Source: an uncultured Sutterella sp. (GTDB taxonomy: Bacteria; Pseudomonadota; Gammaproteobacteria; Burkholderiales; Burkholderiaceae_F). From it: 13,844 bases of DNA. The stretch's first letter is position 1. Every line of letters begins with the position of its first letter. The stretch covers positions 1-13,844 of the forward strand of contig CAKQKT010000051.1 of assembly GCA_934249275.1 (NCBI GenBank). Direction: 5' to 3'. Shown piece by piece: positions 3,680-10,149 of the stretch. A model generated the notes under the pieces. The model saw only the letters and a program-made list of their open reading frames with translations, made no database searches and was not told the origin of the DNA. Both the position numbers and the translations under genes were made by a program.

Positions 3680-3714
3680 TCATGAACCAACACAACACCG
3701 GGATTTCCATCCAT

Positions 3715-4578
3715 ATGCCTACCCTTGATTCACCGACGCTTGATACGGTTTTCTTCGACTACGACCGGAAGCCTCTTTCCCGTCATCCGATGACCTGCCT
3801 TGCGATCTACGGCAAGGGCGGCATCGGCAAGTCCACCACCGCGGCGAACGTTGCGCTTGCGCTGGCGCAGGACGGCAGGCGCGTCATGCTGATCGGCTGC
3901 GATCCGAAGGCCGATTCGACGTCCCTGCTTCGCGGCGGCGCCAGGATCGAAACCGTGCTATCCCTTCTGCGCACCCGCCACAGATCCGAACTCAAGCTTG
4001 AGGAAATGGTGGTCGAGGGCAAGGGCGGCGTTCTCTGCGTCGAAGCGGGCGGCCCCCGCCCGGGCGTGGGCTGCGCCGGCCGCGGCATCATCGCCGCCTT
4101 CGAGGCCCTCAAGGCTCAGGACGCCTTCAACATCCTTCGTCCCGACGTCGTGATCTTCGACGTCCTGGGCGACGTCGTCTGCGGCGGCTTTGCCATGCCG
4201 ATCCGCGACGGCTGGGCGAAGAACGTCTTCATCATCACCTCCGGCGAAAACATGGCGATCCATGCGGCCGCCAACATTGCCATGGCGGTCGAGACCTTCG
4301 CCGAACGCGGCTACGCACGTCTCGGCGGCATCATTCTCAATGCGCGCGACGTACCCCGCGAGAATGAAAAGGTCGAAGAGCTCGCCTCCGACCTCAAGAC
4401 AGCCATTGTGGGCCGCCTGCCCCGCTCGGCCGAAGTTCAGGAAGCCGACGCACTCGGACTCACCGTCCTCGAGCATGCGCCGTCGTCCGCCATGGCCGAC
4501 CGCTACCGCGAGCTTGCGCGCAGCCTCATCAAGGCCTGCGCCAGCTCCGCCTCAACCGCCGGCGGCTTCAAGTTCTGA
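3715..4578 (+). CDS. NifH-like iron protein of a nitrogenase-like system
   Basis: A 287-residue P-loop ATPase of the NifH/BchL/CfbC superfamily. As a homodimer with one shared [4Fe-4S] cluster it would feed electrons to the component-1 partners encoded next. Visible are the P-loop GKGGIGKST (33-41), switch I CDPKADST (62-69), the cluster cysteines C120 (in PGVGCAGRG) and C156 (in DVVCGGFAMP), and R123, equivalent to the arginine ADP-ribosylated in nitrogenase NifH. The middle is close to true NifH; the C-terminal part is more divergent and the NifH tail is missing. The start is uncertain: ATG 3682 and 3715 have poor ribosome sites, while ATG 3790 (MTCLAIYGKGG) matches where NifH usually begins but also lacks one. 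I chose 3715 because GGGAT lies 10 bases before it. The D-like gene follows after 8 bases. Confidence 0.93.
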   Translation: MPTLDSPTLDTVFFDYDRKPLSRHPMTCLAIYGKGGIGKSTTAANVALALAQDGRRVMLIGCDPKADSTSLLRGGARIETVLSLLRTRHRSELKLEEMVVEGKGGVLCVEAGGPRPGVGCAGRGIIAAFEALKAQDAFNILRPDVVIFDVLGDVVCGGFAMPIRDGWAKNVFIITSGENMAIHAAANIAMAVETFAERGYARLGGIILNARDVPRENEKVEELASDLKTAIVGRLPRSAEVQEADALGLTVLEHAPSSAMADRYRELARSLIKACASSASTAGGFKF

Positions 4579-4586
4579 GGAGAGCC

Positions 4587-5924
4587 ATGTTCAAGCTCTT
4601 TGCCCATACGCCCGAAAACGTCATTCCGGCGCCGAGCGTCAAGCTCGCCGAGGCGCAGTGGCCTGTGCCCTTCAAGCAGAGCCTCGAATACTCGCCTCCC
4701 GCACGAGGTCCCTGGACCATCGTGCATGTCGGCATGCTCGTTCCCGAATGCCACGAGATCTTCGTCTGCGCGCAGGGCTGCCTGCGCGGCGTCGTGCTCT
4801 CGGCGGCCGAGCTCGGCCTCCAGCGCCGCTTCTCCACGATCACCGTGACCGAAGAGCACCTGCGCGACGGACAGCTTGAGGACACGATCATCGAGGGCGT
4901 CACCCACATCATCGAGCGGCTGCCGAAGCATCCGCCCGCCGTTCTCATCTACTCGAGCTGCCTGCACCACTTTGCAAGCGCCGACATCGGATGGTGCTAC
5001 CGCAAGCTTTCCGAAGCGTTCCCGGACATCGTCTTCACCGACTGCTACATGACGCCGACGCTTCGCAAGAGCGAAATGCCGCCCGACAACAAGATGCGCC
5101 GCCAGCTCTATCACGGTCTCAAGCCCGCGGACGCGCCCAAGGGCGGCCTGCTCGTTGCAGGCTCTCTCGAGGCCTTCGGTCCCGAGAGCGACTTCGCGCG
5201 CGCGGCTCACGCAGCCGGCGTGCCGTTCTTCGAGCTTCCGGGCATGACGAAGTACGAGGAATACCGCCGCATGGCGCATGCGCGCTGGGTCGTCACGGTC
5301 AATCCGGCGGCCGCTCAGGCCGGCAAGTTCCTTGCCGAGCGGCACGGCATGCGGCACCTGCAGCTTCTTCTCGACTACAACGAACAGCGCATCGACGAGT
5401 CGCTCAGGACGCTTGCCGACCTGACGAACATTCCGCTCTGGGACACCACCGCCGAGAAATCGGCGGCCCGCACCGCGCTTGCTCAGGCGACCGCCGCGCT
5501 CGACGGCCGTCCCGTCGCGATCTGCCAGACGGCGACGACGCGTCCGGTGGCGCTTGCCCGCCGCCTTGTCGAATCCGGCATCCGCGTCACGGACCTTTAC
5601 TGCGACAGCTTCCTGCCGGCGGACAAGACCGATTTTGAAATTCTCCGCAAGAAGGCGCCCGGCATCGTCGTGCATCCGACGATCGTGCCGGAGATGCGCT
5701 TTGCCGCTCCCGCCGCCAAGCGCGACGACATCGTCGCCATCGGCCAGAAAGCCGCCTTCTACACGGGGGCAACCCACATGCTCAACATGCTCGAAGGCGG
5801 CCCATGGTGGGGCCACGGCGGCGTAAGAAGCCTTGCGCTCGCCCTCGCGGCCGCCGCTCGCGAGCCCGTCGACGTCGACCGCATCATCAGCGTCAAGGGA
5901 TATGGGTGCAACGGATGTTGCTAG
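4587..5924 (+). CDS. Nitrogenase component 1-like subunit, NifD/NifE-type
   Basis: A 445-residue protein of the nitrogenase component-1 (oxidoreductase) superfamily, taken as the alpha-like partner. GGAGAG (4579-4584) fits its start. N-terminal cysteines C55, C61, C65 (PECHEIFVCAQGCLRG) and C125 (YSSCLHHFASADIG) are the candidate ligands of a P-cluster-like or [4Fe-4S] cluster. The family C-terminal signature is seen as GQKAAFYTGATHMLNMLEGG (386-405), followed by PWWGHGG. I find no cysteine where NifD Cys275 would lie (WVVTVNP, 234-240) and no clear counterpart of NifD His442, so a FeMo-co-like cofactor held the same way is unlikely. The protein ends in GYGCNGCC, with cysteines at 441, 444 and 445. 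Lengths and motifs do not identify it as BchN, CfbD or MarD. Which subunit is alpha-like is my inference from gene order and cysteine pattern. Confidence 0.9.
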   Translation: MFKLFAHTPENVIPAPSVKLAEAQWPVPFKQSLEYSPPARGPWTIVHVGMLVPECHEIFVCAQGCLRGVVLSAAELGLQRRFSTITVTEEHLRDGQLEDTIIEGVTHIIERLPKHPPAVLIYSSCLHHFASADIGWCYRKLSEAFPDIVFTDCYMTPTLRKSEMPPDNKMRRQLYHGLKPADAPKGGLLVAGSLEAFGPESDFARAAHAAGVPFFELPGMTKYEEYRRMAHARWVVTVNPAAAQAGKFLAERHGMRHLQLLLDYNEQRIDESLRTLADLTNIPLWDTTAEKSAARTALAQATAALDGRPVAICQTATTRPVALARRLVESGIRVTDLYCDSFLPADKTDFEILRKKAPGIVVHPTIVPEMRFAAPAAKRDDIVAIGQKAAFYTGATHMLNMLEGGPWWGHGGVRSLALALAAAAREPVDVDRIISVKGYGCNGCC

Positions 5925-7090
5925 ACTACACGCAAAGCTCCATGTCGACCTATACGGCCGACTGCTCGGGCGTCGCAAGCGCCCTTTACGAACTCGGCGG
6001 CATGACCGTCATCCACGACGCCTCGGGCTGCAATTCGACCTACACCACGCACGACGAGCCCCGATGGAACACGATGCCGTCGGCCGTCTACATTTCGGCG
6101 CTCACCGAAATGGACGCCGTGCTCGGCAACGACGCCCGCATCGTCGACGACATCGTCGAGACGGCCCGCAAGCTGACGCCCGCCTTCGTCGCGATCGCCG
6201 GCACGCCCATTCCCATGATGACGGGCGTCGACCTCAAGGGCATTGCGCGCCTCGTTGAAAGCCGCACCCGCATTCCGTCCTTCGCCGTTCCGACCAACTC
6301 CATGCGCGCCTACAGCGTCGGCTGCGCACAGGCCTGGATCGAGCTCTCCCGCCGATTCGTCGCGCCGAACAACGTTCGCGCAGGCTCCTTCGGGATCAAT
6401 CTTCTGGGCGTCACGCCCCTCGACTTCTCGACGGGCGGCATGCTCGAATCCCTGAGAGCGGCCGCCGCCAGGGCCGGCTACACGATCAACGCCTGCTGGG
6501 CGATGGGCGACAAGCTCGAAGTGCTGGCCAACACGGCCGCCGCCCGCGTCAACGTCGTCGTGAGCGCCTCGGGCCTCCCTCTCGCCCAGAGCTTCGAACG
6601 CGCCTTCGGCACGCCGTATGTCTGCGGCCTGCCCGTCGGCAGCCTTGCCTCGCGCTGGCACGCCGCCGTCGAATGGGCCGCCAAAAACCGCCGCAGCGTT
6701 TCGGCCGCCGACTTTCTCGGCGCCGACAGGGGCGGTTCGCGAACGGCCGTTCTCGGCGAACCGCTGGCGGCAGCCTGCACGGCTGCGGCCATCAACCTCG
6801 TTCACCCGGGAAGCTGCCGGGCGCTCTCTCCTCTGCCGTCGCTCGGCATCGATGCGCCGATCCTCGCCTCGAATCTTTCCGAGGACCTGCTTCGCGAAAC
6901 GCTCAGGGGCACCGAAGTGCTCGCCGCCGACCCGCTCTTCGACATCATTGCCGAAGAAGCCGGAGTAACCCGCACCGTCGCCTTCCCGCATGAAGCCTGC
7001 TCCGGCCGCATGTACCGAAACGAAATCGTCAACATCCTTGAACGCGCCTCCCTCGACGCGCTCGTCAACACTTTAACGGACGAATCATGA
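5915..7090 (+). CDS. Nitrogenase component 1-like subunit, NifK/NifN-type
   Basis: A 391-residue member of the same superfamily, probably forming a heterodimer or heterotetramer with the D-like protein. C17 (ADCSGVASALYELGG) and C39 (HDASGCNSTYTTHDEPRW) reproduce the pair of N-terminal cluster cysteines of NifK (C70 and C95), at 22 residues instead of 25. The third NifK cysteine has no counterpart: the matching region reads AGTPIPMMTGVD (95-106). The C-terminal half has two further Rossmann-like segments, and GEPLAAACTAAA near 281-292. The ATG at 5915 overlaps the end of the D-like gene by 10 bases, pointing to translational coupling; ATG 5942 is an alternative that starts just before the conserved region. 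A NifE/N-like or BchB-like label would be equally loose, so no symbol is given. Confidence 0.88.
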   Translation: MLLDYTQSSMSTYTADCSGVASALYELGGMTVIHDASGCNSTYTTHDEPRWNTMPSAVYISALTEMDAVLGNDARIVDDIVETARKLTPAFVAIAGTPIPMMTGVDLKGIARLVESRTRIPSFAVPTNSMRAYSVGCAQAWIELSRRFVAPNNVRAGSFGINLLGVTPLDFSTGGMLESLRAAAARAGYTINACWAMGDKLEVLANTAAARVNVVVSASGLPLAQSFERAFGTPYVCGLPVGSLASRWHAAVEWAAKNRRSVSAADFLGADRGGSRTAVLGEPLAAACTAAAINLVHPGSCRALSPLPSLGIDAPILASNLSEDLLRETLRGTEVLAADPLFDIIAEEAGVTRTVAFPHEACSGRMYRNEIVNILERASLDALVNTLTDES

Positions 7091-8202
7091 AATTCAATCT
7101 CAAGCACTGCGCCGTTCTCCTCAGCGCATTTGCCATGGCCGCAACCTCTGCAGCCGCACGCACCGTCGTTGACGACAACGACACCAAGGTCGAGATTCCC
7201 GACCAGGTGAACCGCGTCGTCGTGACGAACATTCTTCCGCTCGCCTCCGCCGTGACGGTCTTCCTCAATGACGGCAAGACCGTGGTCGGCATGCACCCGG
7301 CTTCCTATTCCGCCGCCAAGACCGGCCTTCTCGGCAAGCTCTATCCCGACGTTCTCAAGGCCGACACCTCCTTCATGCAGGGCGCCAATCTCAACGTCGA
7401 AGCGCTGATGGCCCTCAAGCCCGACCTCGTCCTCGTCAACGCTCCCGACAAGCGCACGCTTGACGCCGTCCGCAATGCCGGCATTCCCGCCTTCGGCATC
7501 AGCCCGACCAAGTGGCACTACGATGTCATCGAAACGCACGCCCAGTGGATGAAGAGTCTCGCCGAGATCTGGCCCGATCAGAAGGGCAAGGGCGACTTGA
7601 TTGACAGCCGCTCGAAGGCCATCGCAAAAATGGTTGCCGACCGCACCAAGGATCTCAAGCCCGAGGAGCGAAGCAAGGTGCTCTTCCTCTTCCGCTACGA
7701 CAGCCGCCAGATCGTCACCTCCGGCAAGAACTTCTTCGGCCAGTACTGGTGCAACGCCGTCGGTGCGAAGAACGTCGCTGAAACCGTGACCGCCGACAAC
7801 GCCAACGCGATCGTCTCGATGGAGCAGATCTACGCTTGGAATCCGGACGTCATCTTCATTACGAACTTCACGGCCGCCAAGCCGTCCGACCTTCTTGAAA
7901 ACAAGATCGCCGGCCATGACTGGTCCGACATCAAGGCCGTCAAGGACAAGCGCGTCTACAAGCTTCCGCTCGGCATCTACCGCAGCTACACGCCGTCGGC
8001 CGACACGCCGCTCACGCTCCTCTGGATGGCCAAGCAGGTTTATCCCTCGCGCTTTGCCGACATCGACCTCACGAAGGAAGTGAAGGCCTGGTACAAGGAC
8101 GTCTTCGGAGTGACGCTCACCGATGCCGACGTCGACATGATGTTCAACCCGGGTGAAGGCGCCTCGGCCAGCGCCACGGTCGCCACCCGCAGCAACGGCT
8201 GA
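7087..8202 (+). CDS. Periplasmic substrate-binding protein, FepB/BtuF-type ABC importer
   Basis: A 371-residue class III (siderophore/cobalamin/heme-type) binding protein. A Sec signal peptide is visible (MKFNLK, hydrophobic core, cleavage near SAAA at about 21-24). There is no lipobox, so it should be soluble in the periplasm. Family features are IPDQVNRVVVTNILPLASAV after a short strand, NVEALMALKPDLVLVN, then a long central helix region, WNPDVIFITN, VYKLPLGIYR and TPLTLLWMAKQVYP. Its ATG overlaps the stop of the K-like gene as ATGA (7087-7090), which is strong evidence that the transporter and nitrogenase-like genes are one operon. The ligand could be a ferric chelate, cobalamin-like corrinoid, heme or another metal complex; sequence alone does not decide. 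Confidence 0.93.
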   Translation: MKFNLKHCAVLLSAFAMAATSAAARTVVDDNDTKVEIPDQVNRVVVTNILPLASAVTVFLNDGKTVVGMHPASYSAAKTGLLGKLYPDVLKADTSFMQGANLNVEALMALKPDLVLVNAPDKRTLDAVRNAGIPAFGISPTKWHYDVIETHAQWMKSLAEIWPDQKGKGDLIDSRSKAIAKMVADRTKDLKPEERSKVLFLFRYDSRQIVTSGKNFFGQYWCNAVGAKNVAETVTADNANAIVSMEQIYAWNPDVIFITNFTAAKPSDLLENKIAGHDWSDIKAVKDKRVYKLPLGIYRSYTPSADTPLTLLWMAKQVYPSRFADIDLTKEVKAWYKDVFGVTLTDADVDMMFNPGEGASASATVATRSNG

Positions 8203-8205
8203 TAA

Positions 8206-9261
8206 ATGTCCACCGCTCCCGTACGCGCGCGAAGCGCCCAGGCCGCCAAGGCGGCCGCCGGCCACTTTCGCCTCATCATCGCTTCTCTCGTCGCGGTTCT
8301 GCTCGTCACGGCCGTCGCCTCGCTCTGCATGGGCCGCTTCAGCCTCACGGGCGCGCAGGTTCTGGCCGTCCTGATGCCCGACGGCTGGATGTCCGTCGAA
8401 ACAAACCGCATGATGGAGAACATCGTGCTCAACGTGAGGCTCCCGCGCGTCATCCTCGCCATCATTGCCGGTGCGGGGCTCGCCATGTCGGGCGCCGCCT
8501 TTCAGGCGCTTTTTGCGAATCCCCTCGCCGCGCCCGACACGCTCGGCGTCGCCACGGGCGCCTCGTTCGGCGCGGTTCTCGGCATTCTCTTCGGATGGAA
8601 CGGCATGGGCATCCAGCTGATGAGCCTGGCAACGGGCCTCTCGGCGGTCTTCTTCGTGATCGTCATCAGCCGCGTGAGAAATGCAAGCTCGATTCTGATG
8701 ATCATCCTCTCGGGCATGGTCGTTGGGGCACTCTTCTCGGCCCTTGTGTCGCTCGTCAAGTACGCAGCCGACCCGCAGGACGTGCTCCCGTCCATCACCT
8801 TCTGGATGATGGGCGCGCTTACGGGCGCCACGAAGGCGAGCGTTCTCGCCGGCACCCCCATGGTGCTTCTCGGCATGCTCATTCTGTGGCTCCTGAGATG
8901 GCGCCTCAACGTCACGACGCTTCCCGCAGACGAGGCAGCCAGCCTCGGCATTCCGGTGCGCCGGATCCGCGCGGGCGTCATCATCTCCGCCACCATGATC
9001 ACGGCATCCGTCGTCTCGATGTGCGGCCTCATCGGCTGGGTAGGACTTCTCGTCCCGCATGCCGCACGCATGGTCTTCGGCGCCAACAACCGCTTCGTGC
9101 TGCCTGCCTCCATGGTGATGGGCGCTCTCTTCATGCTCGTGATCGACACGGTGGCGCGCACGGCGACCCAAAGCGAGATTCCGGTCTCCATTCTGACGGC
9201 CGTCGTGGGCGCGCCGTTCTTCATCTATCTCCTGCGCCGAACGGGCGGGATTTCGGGATAG
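8206..9261 (+). CDS. FecCD/BtuC-type ABC importer permease
   Basis: A 351-residue inner-membrane permease of the BtuC/FecCD family, expected to work as a homodimer with about 10 helices per chain. Seen are the family segment RLPRVILAIIAGAGLAMSG followed by AFQALFANPLAAPDTLGV, the coupling region ADEAASLGIPVRR, GLIGWVGLLVPHAARM, and the C-terminal EIPVSILTAVVGAPFFIYLL. A cytosolic basic N-terminus of about 20 residues precedes helix 1. It starts one codon after the tandem stops TGA-TAA of the binding-protein gene with no good Shine-Dalgarno, so translation is probably coupled. Confidence 0.95.
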   Translation: MSTAPVRARSAQAAKAAAGHFRLIIASLVAVLLVTAVASLCMGRFSLTGAQVLAVLMPDGWMSVETNRMMENIVLNVRLPRVILAIIAGAGLAMSGAAFQALFANPLAAPDTLGVATGASFGAVLGILFGWNGMGIQLMSLATGLSAVFFVIVISRVRNASSILMIILSGMVVGALFSALVSLVKYAADPQDVLPSITFWMMGALTGATKASVLAGTPMVLLGMLILWLLRWRLNVTTLPADEAASLGIPVRRIRAGVIISATMITASVVSMCGLIGWVGLLVPHAARMVFGANNRFVLPASMVMGALFMLVIDTVARTATQSEIPVSILTAVVGAPFFIYLLRRTGGISG

Positions 9262-9265
9262 CGCC

Positions 9266-10054
9266 ATGTCTCTTGATGTCATCCACGGCGGCTACGCCTG
9301 GCCGGGCCGCGAGCCCGTGCTCTCAGGCGTCGACTTTTCCTTTGACGGCAAGGGCGTCATGAGCATTCTCGGGCCCAACGGCGCAGGGAAGACGACCCTT
9401 CTGCGATGCATGCTCGGCCTGCTGAAGTTTACGGAGGGCGAGGCGCGCCTTGACGGCCGTGCCGTCTCCGACTGGAAGCCGCGCGACTTCTGGCGCACGA
9501 TCGGATACGTTCCTCAGGCCAAGCTTCCGGGCTTTGCCTCGATGTCGCTCGCCGACATGGTTGTGCTCGGCCGAAGCGCGCACATCGGCCCCTTCAGCCT
9601 GCCGTCCGATGCGGACTGGGCCGTCGTTGACCGCGTGATGACCGAAGTCGGCATCGAGCATCTGGCCAACCGCCTCTGCAGCGAAGTTTCGGGCGGCCAG
9701 TTCCAGCTTGCGCTCATCGCACGCGCCCTTGCGGCCGAACCCAAGATCCTCGTGCTGGACGAACCCGAGTCGAATCTCGACTTCCGCAACCAGATGGTCG
9801 TTCTCAACGTAATCGAGCGTCTGACCGAACAGGGACTCGGCGCCGTCATCAACACGCACTTCCCGGCTCACGCGCTCGAAATCTCCACGAAGACGCTGCT
9901 CGTGCCCAAGCACCGTCCGCCCATCTTCGGCAACACCCGCGACGTCATGACCGAGGATCAGCTCTCCGATGTCTTCGACGTGCGGGTGCGCATTCGCGAG
10001 CTCGACTTTCCCGAGCGCCGCTACACGTGCGTCGCAGCCGTCGAGCCGAAGTAG
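9266..10054 (+). CDS. FepC/BtuD-type ABC importer ATPase
   Basis: A 262-residue cytosolic ATPase that powers the importer. All catalytic motifs are present: Walker A GPNGAGKT (36-43), Q-loop glutamine in YVPQAK (Q84), ABC signature SEVSGGQ (139-145, Val in place of the usual Leu), Walker B ILVLDEPESNLD (161-172) with E166 as the catalytic glutamate, and switch histidine H198 in NTHFPAHA. It starts 4 bases after the permease stop and is the last gene of the operon, 25 bases before the terminator. Confidence 0.95.
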   Translation: MSLDVIHGGYAWPGREPVLSGVDFSFDGKGVMSILGPNGAGKTTLLRCMLGLLKFTEGEARLDGRAVSDWKPRDFWRTIGYVPQAKLPGFASMSLADMVVLGRSAHIGPFSLPSDADWAVVDRVMTEVGIEHLANRLCSEVSGGQFQLALIARALAAEPKILVLDEPESNLDFRNQMVVLNVIERLTEQGLGAVINTHFPAHALEISTKTLLVPKHRPPIFGNTRDVMTEDQLSDVFDVRVRIRELDFPERRYTCVAAVEPK

Positions 10055-10079
10055 TCCTTCCGCCTAACATCCAATAAGA

Positions 10080-10116
10080 AAGGATCGCTCCACAGCCGTG
10101 GAACGATCCTTCTTTT
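10080..10116. terminator. Strong, probably bidirectional terminator
   Basis: Fourteen-base arms (10080-10093 and 10098-10111, one C-A mismatch) close the loop AGCC, followed on the plus strand by CTTTT. Read on the minus strand the same stem is followed by TTCTTATT (T-rich but less uniform). It ends the nitrogenase-like/ABC operon and lies 33 bases past the stop of the converging phosphate permease gene, so it may serve both. Confidence 0.9.
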
Positions 10117-10149
10117 ATGCCTATCTTCCGTCGAAGTCCTGCTTTTGCC

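Follow-up and report, generated by a model that had tools for sequence, protein, structure and literature searches.

A nitrogenase-like operon with its own importer in Sutterella and its probable link to [FeFe]-hydrogenase maturation

The stretch of DNA analysed here, hereafter called the window, is 13,844 nucleotides long (contig CAKQKT010000051.1, from an uncultured Sutterella sp.) and contains a predicted operon of six genes that joins a nitrogenase-like reductase with H, D, and K proteins to an importer comprised of a binding protein, a permease, and an ATPase. The D protein is 91% identical to its S. wadsworthensis counterpart, and the closest proteins mark the source as related to Sutterella. 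We call the nitrogenase-like H-D-K clade of this operon NFL. Based on its gene neighbours and its distribution among genomes, NFL is very probably linked to [FeFe]-hydrogenase maturation. The CO and CN- of this hydrogenase are generally attributed to HydG, and we think it moderately likely that NFL and the importer provide the H-cluster with its iron-CO-CN unit, either as a bypass of HydG or as a supplement where HydG is present. In the window organism, a second or conditional supply is more likely than a replacement of HydG because, of the five nearest Sutterella genomes, four have HydG alongside the operon. From sequence comparisons we infer the role in H-cluster assembly, the succession of steps, and the kind of compound that is imported.

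Neighbours and genomic distribution of NFL

A genome scan identified at least 569 relatives, and the best 80 were kept as related loci. H and D were present in all 80 of these, K in 78, the binding protein in 64, and the permease and ATPase in 59. In the 48 loci with long flanks (at least 6 kb upstream and at least 5 kb downstream), the binding protein was found in 43 and the permease and ATPase in 42. The original prediction had called for a survey of conserved pairing with these ATP-binding cassette (ABC) genes and had named their absence beside nearly all close homologues as a possible refutation; the counts did not refute it, and the partnership is conserved.

Clustering of the neighbouring genes showed that HydE, HydF, and a TM1266 protein, a putative hydrogenase system regulator, share a strand with NFL loci. 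Example neighbours exceeded the NCBIfam cut-offs (HydE 547 bits against 254.6, HydF 575.7 against 325.6, and TM1266 117 against 60.8). Of the 48 long-flanked loci, 42 encode TM1266, either separately or as part of the ATPase, 23 encode HydE, and 17 encode HydF. Among the best 80 loci, 52 contained a separate TM1266 gene and 37 contained an importer ATPase fused to a C-terminal TM1266-like domain, often beside a separate TM1266 gene (for example L195:11726-12784, where L denotes a locus; genomes are denoted by G). The window ATPase is without such a domain. Four long-flanked loci had none of HydE, HydF, and TM1266, and all four were from Sutterella, whose genomes encode HydE elsewhere. The link to hydrogenase is invisible in the window alone because the Sutterella hydrogenase genes lie outside it.

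All 12 NFL genomes examined for HydE contained a match at E <= 0.001, with 11 over the cut-off and G001 slightly below it; exactly one copy over the cut-off was found in 10 of the 12, two in G012, and none in G001. Larger comparison groups were each drawn around a central genome and named after it. Of the 301 genomes in the Loigolactobacillus rennini family, 6 had HydE and 5 had NFL, and these five all belonged to the six (p = 3e-10; this and the other p values exaggerate independence, the genomes being related by ancestry). The S. wadsworthensis family had a HydE match of 249 bits or more in 41 of 67 genomes (above the cut-off in 39) and NFL in 10 of 67, all ten within the HydE set (p = 0.005). 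For the Intestinibacter bartlettii class (Clostridia), 257 of 391 genomes had HydE over the cut-off, and the 16 with a member of the NFL clade, defined here by more than 430 bits, were all inside that set (p = 0.002); five weaker relatives (200-333 bits) were assigned to other clades and matches at 27 and 41 bits were excluded. NFL was absent from every HydE-negative genome of the L. rennini family (295/295) and the S. wadsworthensis family (26/26). All 28 NFL genomes that were searched contained the [FeFe]-hydrogenase family PF02906, which also includes hydrogenase-like proteins, versus 1 of 14 controls. Using a pattern of our own for the H-cluster motifs, we found all three motifs in three of seven hydrogenase examples and two motifs in the other four.

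This association could be indirect if hydrogenase hosts happen to offer conditions that NFL needs, namely a low-potential ferredoxin or strict anaerobiosis. The names of the NFL hosts do suggest anaerobes or fermenters, but the linkage of hydE, hydF, and TM1266 genes to NFL and the difference in HydG between HydE-positive Clostridia with and without NFL, described below, both make this explanation highly improbable. The dependence could also run in reverse, with HydE and HydF building an organometallic cofactor for an NFL that performs some other reduction. Such a scheme would fit the many clostridial loci where hydE, hydF, or both adjoin NFL. However, the one HydE that 10 of 12 genomes have is needed for the hydrogenases as well (present in 28 of 28 genomes), the D and K cysteines suffice for one [4Fe-4S] cluster only, and the loss of HydG would be left unexplained. 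We consider this scheme very unlikely.

HydG and Hyp genes in genomes with NFL

HydG makes CO, CN-, and an Fe(CO)2CN unit, and HypCDEF make the Fe(CN)2CO of [NiFe]-hydrogenase (PMC9431212). Among 46 genomes we found HydG over the cut-off in 14, one of which (G135) has no NFL, so that, of the 45 with NFL, 13 have HydG and 32 lack it. The contrast was sharpest in the Clostridia sample, where HydG was found in 1 of 16 genomes of the NFL clade versus 57 of 59 controls with HydE and no NFL (Fisher p = 9e-13). Clostridia with the weaker NFL relatives had HydG in 4 of 5 genomes. When five more NFL genomes from the S. wadsworthensis family were added, HydG was present in 15 of 64 distinct NFL genomes. 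One NFL genome without HydG, G524 (Clostridium fermenticellae by its K protein), is a single contig of 2.82 Mb, which argues that incompleteness is not the general cause of HydG absence. HydG presence changes ten times on the D tree, which is a gene tree and not a species tree, suggesting that HydG loss was not one event. In S. wadsworthensis locus L142, HydG lies about 9 kb upstream of H, and it is also cut at the edge of L005.

The loci also differed in what accompanied NFL. In 103 non-duplicate loci, importer genes were present in 78, Hyp genes in 11, both in none, and neither in 14 (p = 2e-8); 8 of the 14 with neither have less than 2 kb on one side. A second NFL (H'D'K') accompanies the Hyp genes in 10 of the 11 loci, as judged by D', and the eleventh (L197) ends shortly after hypC. 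Examples scored above the cut-offs for HypF (753.5 bits against 466), HypD (392 against 193), HypE (423 against 252), and HypC (56.5 against 48). The switch between importer and Hyp genes occurs two times on the D tree. Genome G561 carries a nearly self-contained cluster (L200) in the order [FeFe]-hydrogenase-H'-D'-K'-HypF-HypC-HypD-HypE-TM1266-D-K-HydF-HydE; its hydrogenase belongs to group A6 (776 bits against a cut-off of 765) and the genome has no HydG. Inspection by eye of the open reading frames (ORFs) of five Hyp loci revealed no [NiFe] subunit, with no family search made for one. In a group that includes Mogibacterium (L049, L054, and L056), HypB lies upstream of NFL, over the cut-off in L054 and as profile matches in L049. 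A protein of the ATC hydrolase family (PF14196) is encoded upstream of NFL in L056; ATC is a cyanide-cysteine adduct.

NFL thus occurs with HydE and HydF, is nearly complementary to HydG in Clostridia, and is fed by either Hyp genes or an importer, for which a HydG-independent supply of the Fe-CO-CN unit is the best explanation. Since Hyp genes replace the importer, the imported compound should equal the product of HypCDEF and H'D'K'. We propose that the importer would take up a small iron complex that carries, or is able to yield, cyanide and CO ligands. H would then deliver electrons, gated by ATP, to a [4Fe-4S] cluster bound by three cysteines of D and one of K, and D/K would reduce the imported compound and hand the product to HydE and HydF. 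In relatives with no importer, HypF, HypC, HypD, and HypE together with the second NFL would make the compound inside the cell. Cyanate, thiocyanate, and CO2 are among the small C-N and C-O compounds that nitrogenase is known to reduce, making the proposed chemistry thinkable. More specifically, and only tentatively, NFL in many anaerobes without HydG, including gut Clostridia and Lentisphaerae, may furnish Fe-CO-CN from a precursor made by HypCDEF or from an iron-cyanide/carbonyl complex scavenged through the importer. Import of a preformed iron-cyanide/carbonyl complex is, on its own, possible but doubtful; if it does occur, an organometallic hydrogenase precursor would be a nutrient exchanged between microbes.

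A second route to the H-cluster is indicated by the genomes that have hydrogenase and HydE and no HydG and that keep NFL together with either an importer or Hyp genes, which would give a nitrogenase-like clade without an assigned function a testable job. Such a route may bear on a puzzle in gas-fermenting acetogens. Di Leonardo et al. (2022) examined eight acetogens with HydE and HydF and found HydG in three, HydG being unidentifiable by known motifs in five; five acetogens are described as having HypCDEF and no HypAB, and the authors state that they have no straightforward explanation for the missing HydG (PMC9431212). The relatives of K include proteins from C. ljungdahlii, C. ragsdalei, and C. 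drakei, as judged from K matches alone. Dos Santos et al. (2012) reported nitrogenase-like proteins of Coprococcus, Dorea, and others, some of them beside ABC transporters and some, in Coprococcus and further Firmicutes, alongside hydrogenase maturation proteins, and suggested metallocluster assembly as one possibility (PMC3464626). Like the clade described here these proteins have few conserved cysteines, but the passages on them draw no link to HydG or Hyp and do not name Sutterella (PMC3464626). Our literature searches found no paper joining NFL, Hyp, and HydG. HydG (TIGR03955) and NFL would supply the same unit to HydE and HydF, and the two are nearly complementary in the Clostridia sample; they differ in protein family and in chemistry, with HydG using a tyrosine-based radical S-adenosylmethionine (SAM) reaction and NFL being an ATP-driven two-component reductase. 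HypCDEF, which occupy the place of the importer in 11 loci, are not encoded in the window and are known for [NiFe] centres (PMC9431212).

In addition to the shared ancestry of the genomes and the breadth of PF02906, several observations weigh against a role for NFL in H-cluster supply. The Sutterella operon is not adjacent to hydE or hydF. HydG is retained in 4 of the 5 nearest Sutterella genomes, in 6 of the 10 Sutterella-family genomes that carry NFL, and in 4 of the 5 lactobacilli that carry it, and thus its loss is not obligatory; the remaining one of the nearest Sutterella genomes (L004), which has no HydG, is a 1.7-Mb draft. Four genomes (G372, G373, G375, and G377) have the importer binding protein and neither HydG nor NFL. 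Six others (G339, G342, G376, G378, G386, and G387) have a HydE match, over the cut-off in five, and no HydG, NFL, or binding protein, and 2 of the 59 HydE-positive controls were also without both HydG and NFL. Genome G398 has a full importer-type cluster, no HydG, and no HypB-F (1.22 of 1.23 Mb covered), yet no hydrogenase; this genome is perhaps incomplete. NFL-importer pairs also occur in Treponema and, belonging to another clade, in Sporomusa beside a siderophore receptor, so that a hydrogenase role does not follow from the pairing itself. Among the acetogens, all but one have an atypical HydG-like protein, and each has a predicted [NiFe]-hydrogenase that HypCDEF may serve (PMC9431212).

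The importer and its cargo

The presence of PF01497, PF01032, and ABC_tran proteins within one operon identifies the importer as of the BtuFCD/FecBCD type. No named substrate subfamily was over its cut-off for the binding protein (6 families), the permease (16 families), or the ATPase (best 25 of 181 families), and the permease scored 202 and 185 bits against BtuC models with equivalog cut-offs of 461 and 334. The nearest solved structure to the binding protein is 4ovk (1.3e-63), for which no ligand is named, followed by HI_1472 (4e-36), the molybdate binder MolA. HI_1470-1472 form the MolBCA importer, to which the relationship is distant, and there is no sign here of molybdate as the ligand.

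The importer itself tracks H-cluster maturation: of the 67 genomes in the S. wadsworthensis family, 27 contain the binding-protein clade (more than 450 bits), every one of them HydE-positive (p = 9e-9), and in G372, G373, and G375, which have neither HydG nor NFL, the binding protein, permease, and ATPase adjoin HydF-HydE, with one sulfatase-family gene between them in G372 and G373. A sulfatase-family protein is encoded between HydE and the importer in L118 and L119. In a Lactobacillaceae genome (G218), eight tandem binding-protein genes lie between K and HydF (L149:7187-16408), and L148 has six, which suggests several ligands or a strong dosage need. The Lactobacillus locus L150 (G135) contains HydE, HydF, the binding protein, and the permease, with no NFL and no ATPase, and HydG is present in the genome; an extra ORF of no identified family fills the gap, and the locus looks degenerate.

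A simpler function would be iron supply, with the importer bringing in an iron chelate from which NFL reductively releases iron for H-cluster and other Fe-S assembly, CO and CN- coming from elsewhere. The FecBCD type of the importer would suit this, as would a FeoA-FeoB fusion gene near HydE and HydF in Sutterella-family loci L117, L118, L120, and L121 (family-checked in L118 and seen by eye in the others), a Sporomusa plasmid on which another NFL clade lies beside a siderophore importer and a TonB siderophore receptor, and the binding protein retained in genomes with HydG and no NFL. Iron supply is nonetheless unlikely because it leaves unexplained both the absence of HydG from 15 of 16 NFL Clostridia and the Hyp genes in the place of the importer.

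The original prediction favoured a reduction by NFL of a corrinoid, heme, or siderophore-like chelate taken up by the importer, which would be unrelated to hydrogenase. The class of the importer, a K fold closest to the tetrapyrrole reductase dark-operative protochlorophyllide oxidoreductase (DPOR), and the other Clostridium nitrogenase-like genes reported beside transporters (PMC3464626) are in its favour. The recurring neighbours, however, are hydE, hydF, and TM1266, hyp genes replace the importer in 11 loci, the co-occurrence with HydE is constant, and NFL is missing from the HydE-negative genomes counted above. Tetrapyrrole genes were not seen by eye among the conserved neighbours or the ORFs of inspected loci, with no family search made. 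Such a substrate is not supported, and we regard this function as distinctly unlikely for NFL, the supply of an iron-CO-CN unit being our preferred reading. The siderophore idea may fit the Sporomusa termitida plasmid pSPTER (L208, 5631-18080), where the different NFL clade lies near the TonB receptor and an AraC regulator, together with a binding protein, two permeases, an ATPase, and an alpha/beta hydrolase-fold gene. On the Treponema saccharophilum plasmid pTS1 (L207, 10622-18278), the order H-D-K-binding protein-permease-ATPase is found on a spirochaete replicon, with D and K outside both NFL clades.

The six genes of the window

All six genes predicted initially were located on the + strand in the order H-D-K-binding protein-permease-ATPase, with intergenic spacings of exactly 8, -10, -4, 3, and 4, and every protein exceeded the curated Pfam cut-off. 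H, at 3682..4578 with candidate starts at 3682, 3715, and 3790, encodes a NifH/CfbC-like ATP-dependent [4Fe-4S] reductase (Fer4_NifH, 304.6 bits). It is followed by D, the predicted catalytic subunit, at 4587..5924 (Oxidored_nitro, 66.7 bits) and its partner subunit K at 5915..7090 (Oxidored_nitro, 79.2 bits). The class III binding protein (PF01497) is encoded at 7087..8202 (Peripla_BP_2, 74.3 bits), the BtuC/FecCD-type permease at 8206..9261 (FecCD, 280 bits), and the ATPase at 9266..10054 (ABC_tran, 99.3 bits). The overlaps and spacing suggest a single transcript. As predicted, a Rho-independent terminator hairpin follows at about 10074..10118 on the + strand (-22.2 kcal/mol, where shuffled sequences average -7.8; z = -5.7); a consensus terminator scan did not list it because its T tract is short. 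The identical six genes occur in identical order in Sutterella loci L001, L002, and L005, and this recurrence argues that the arrangement is not chance. Locus L003 has H-D-K and the binding protein only, and L004 is broken off by a contig end.

The H translation contains a P-loop (GKGGIGKST) and the motifs GCAGRG and DVVCGG with the two cluster cysteines. None of the six proteins was over an NCBIfam cut-off, the ATPase being compared with the best 25 of 181 families. H missed both nifH (319.7 bits, cut-off 394.35) and CfbC (303, cut-off 402), and for D and K no nifD or nifK model was near its cut-off. The invariant cysteines are Cys61, Cys65, and Cys125 in D and Cys39 in K. The nitrogenase P-cluster is held by three cysteines in D and three in K. 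We rejected nitrogenase (NifHDK, VnfDK, AnfDK) on the family scores and on the three N-terminal cysteines of D and one of K. DPOR and chlorophyllide oxidoreductase (BchLNB, BchXYZ) were rejected on scores far under the cut-offs (BchL 193/345, BchN 21.8/324, and BchB 41.3/490 bits) and on the position of D and K outside the Bch clades, even with the DPOR chains, BchB by chain letter, closest to K in fold. CfbCD was rejected on its CfbC score and because D and K are two distinct subunits; CfbCD has a single catalytic subunit (PMC11423573). In the tree, D, D', and Treponema D grouped together (support 99), as did K, K', and Treponema K (support 100), separate from BchN/B/Y/Z and NifDKEN. The expectation that D and K lie outside characterised clades thus held for Nif and Bch, in a tree with long branches whose references were one row for each Nif and Bch type and none for Cfb, Mar, or Isr. 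H-D-K is, on sequence grounds, an uncharacterised nitrogenase-like clade outside Nif and Bch. The isethionate reductase IsrBHDK with its SsuABC importer is likewise a nitrogenase-like enzyme with a dedicated substrate importer, but it works with a radical-SAM protein, and its importer is a different type that carries sulfonates (PMC11423573). A cysteine-rich C-terminal tail (GxGC..C) is conserved in 51 of 58 D relatives, corresponding to 5900-5924 in the window, and was modelled with low confidence. Elsewhere in the window, the start holds only one long ORF (10-798), whose coding status is uncertain, and the operon is flanked by smpB upstream and a PHO4-type transporter downstream.

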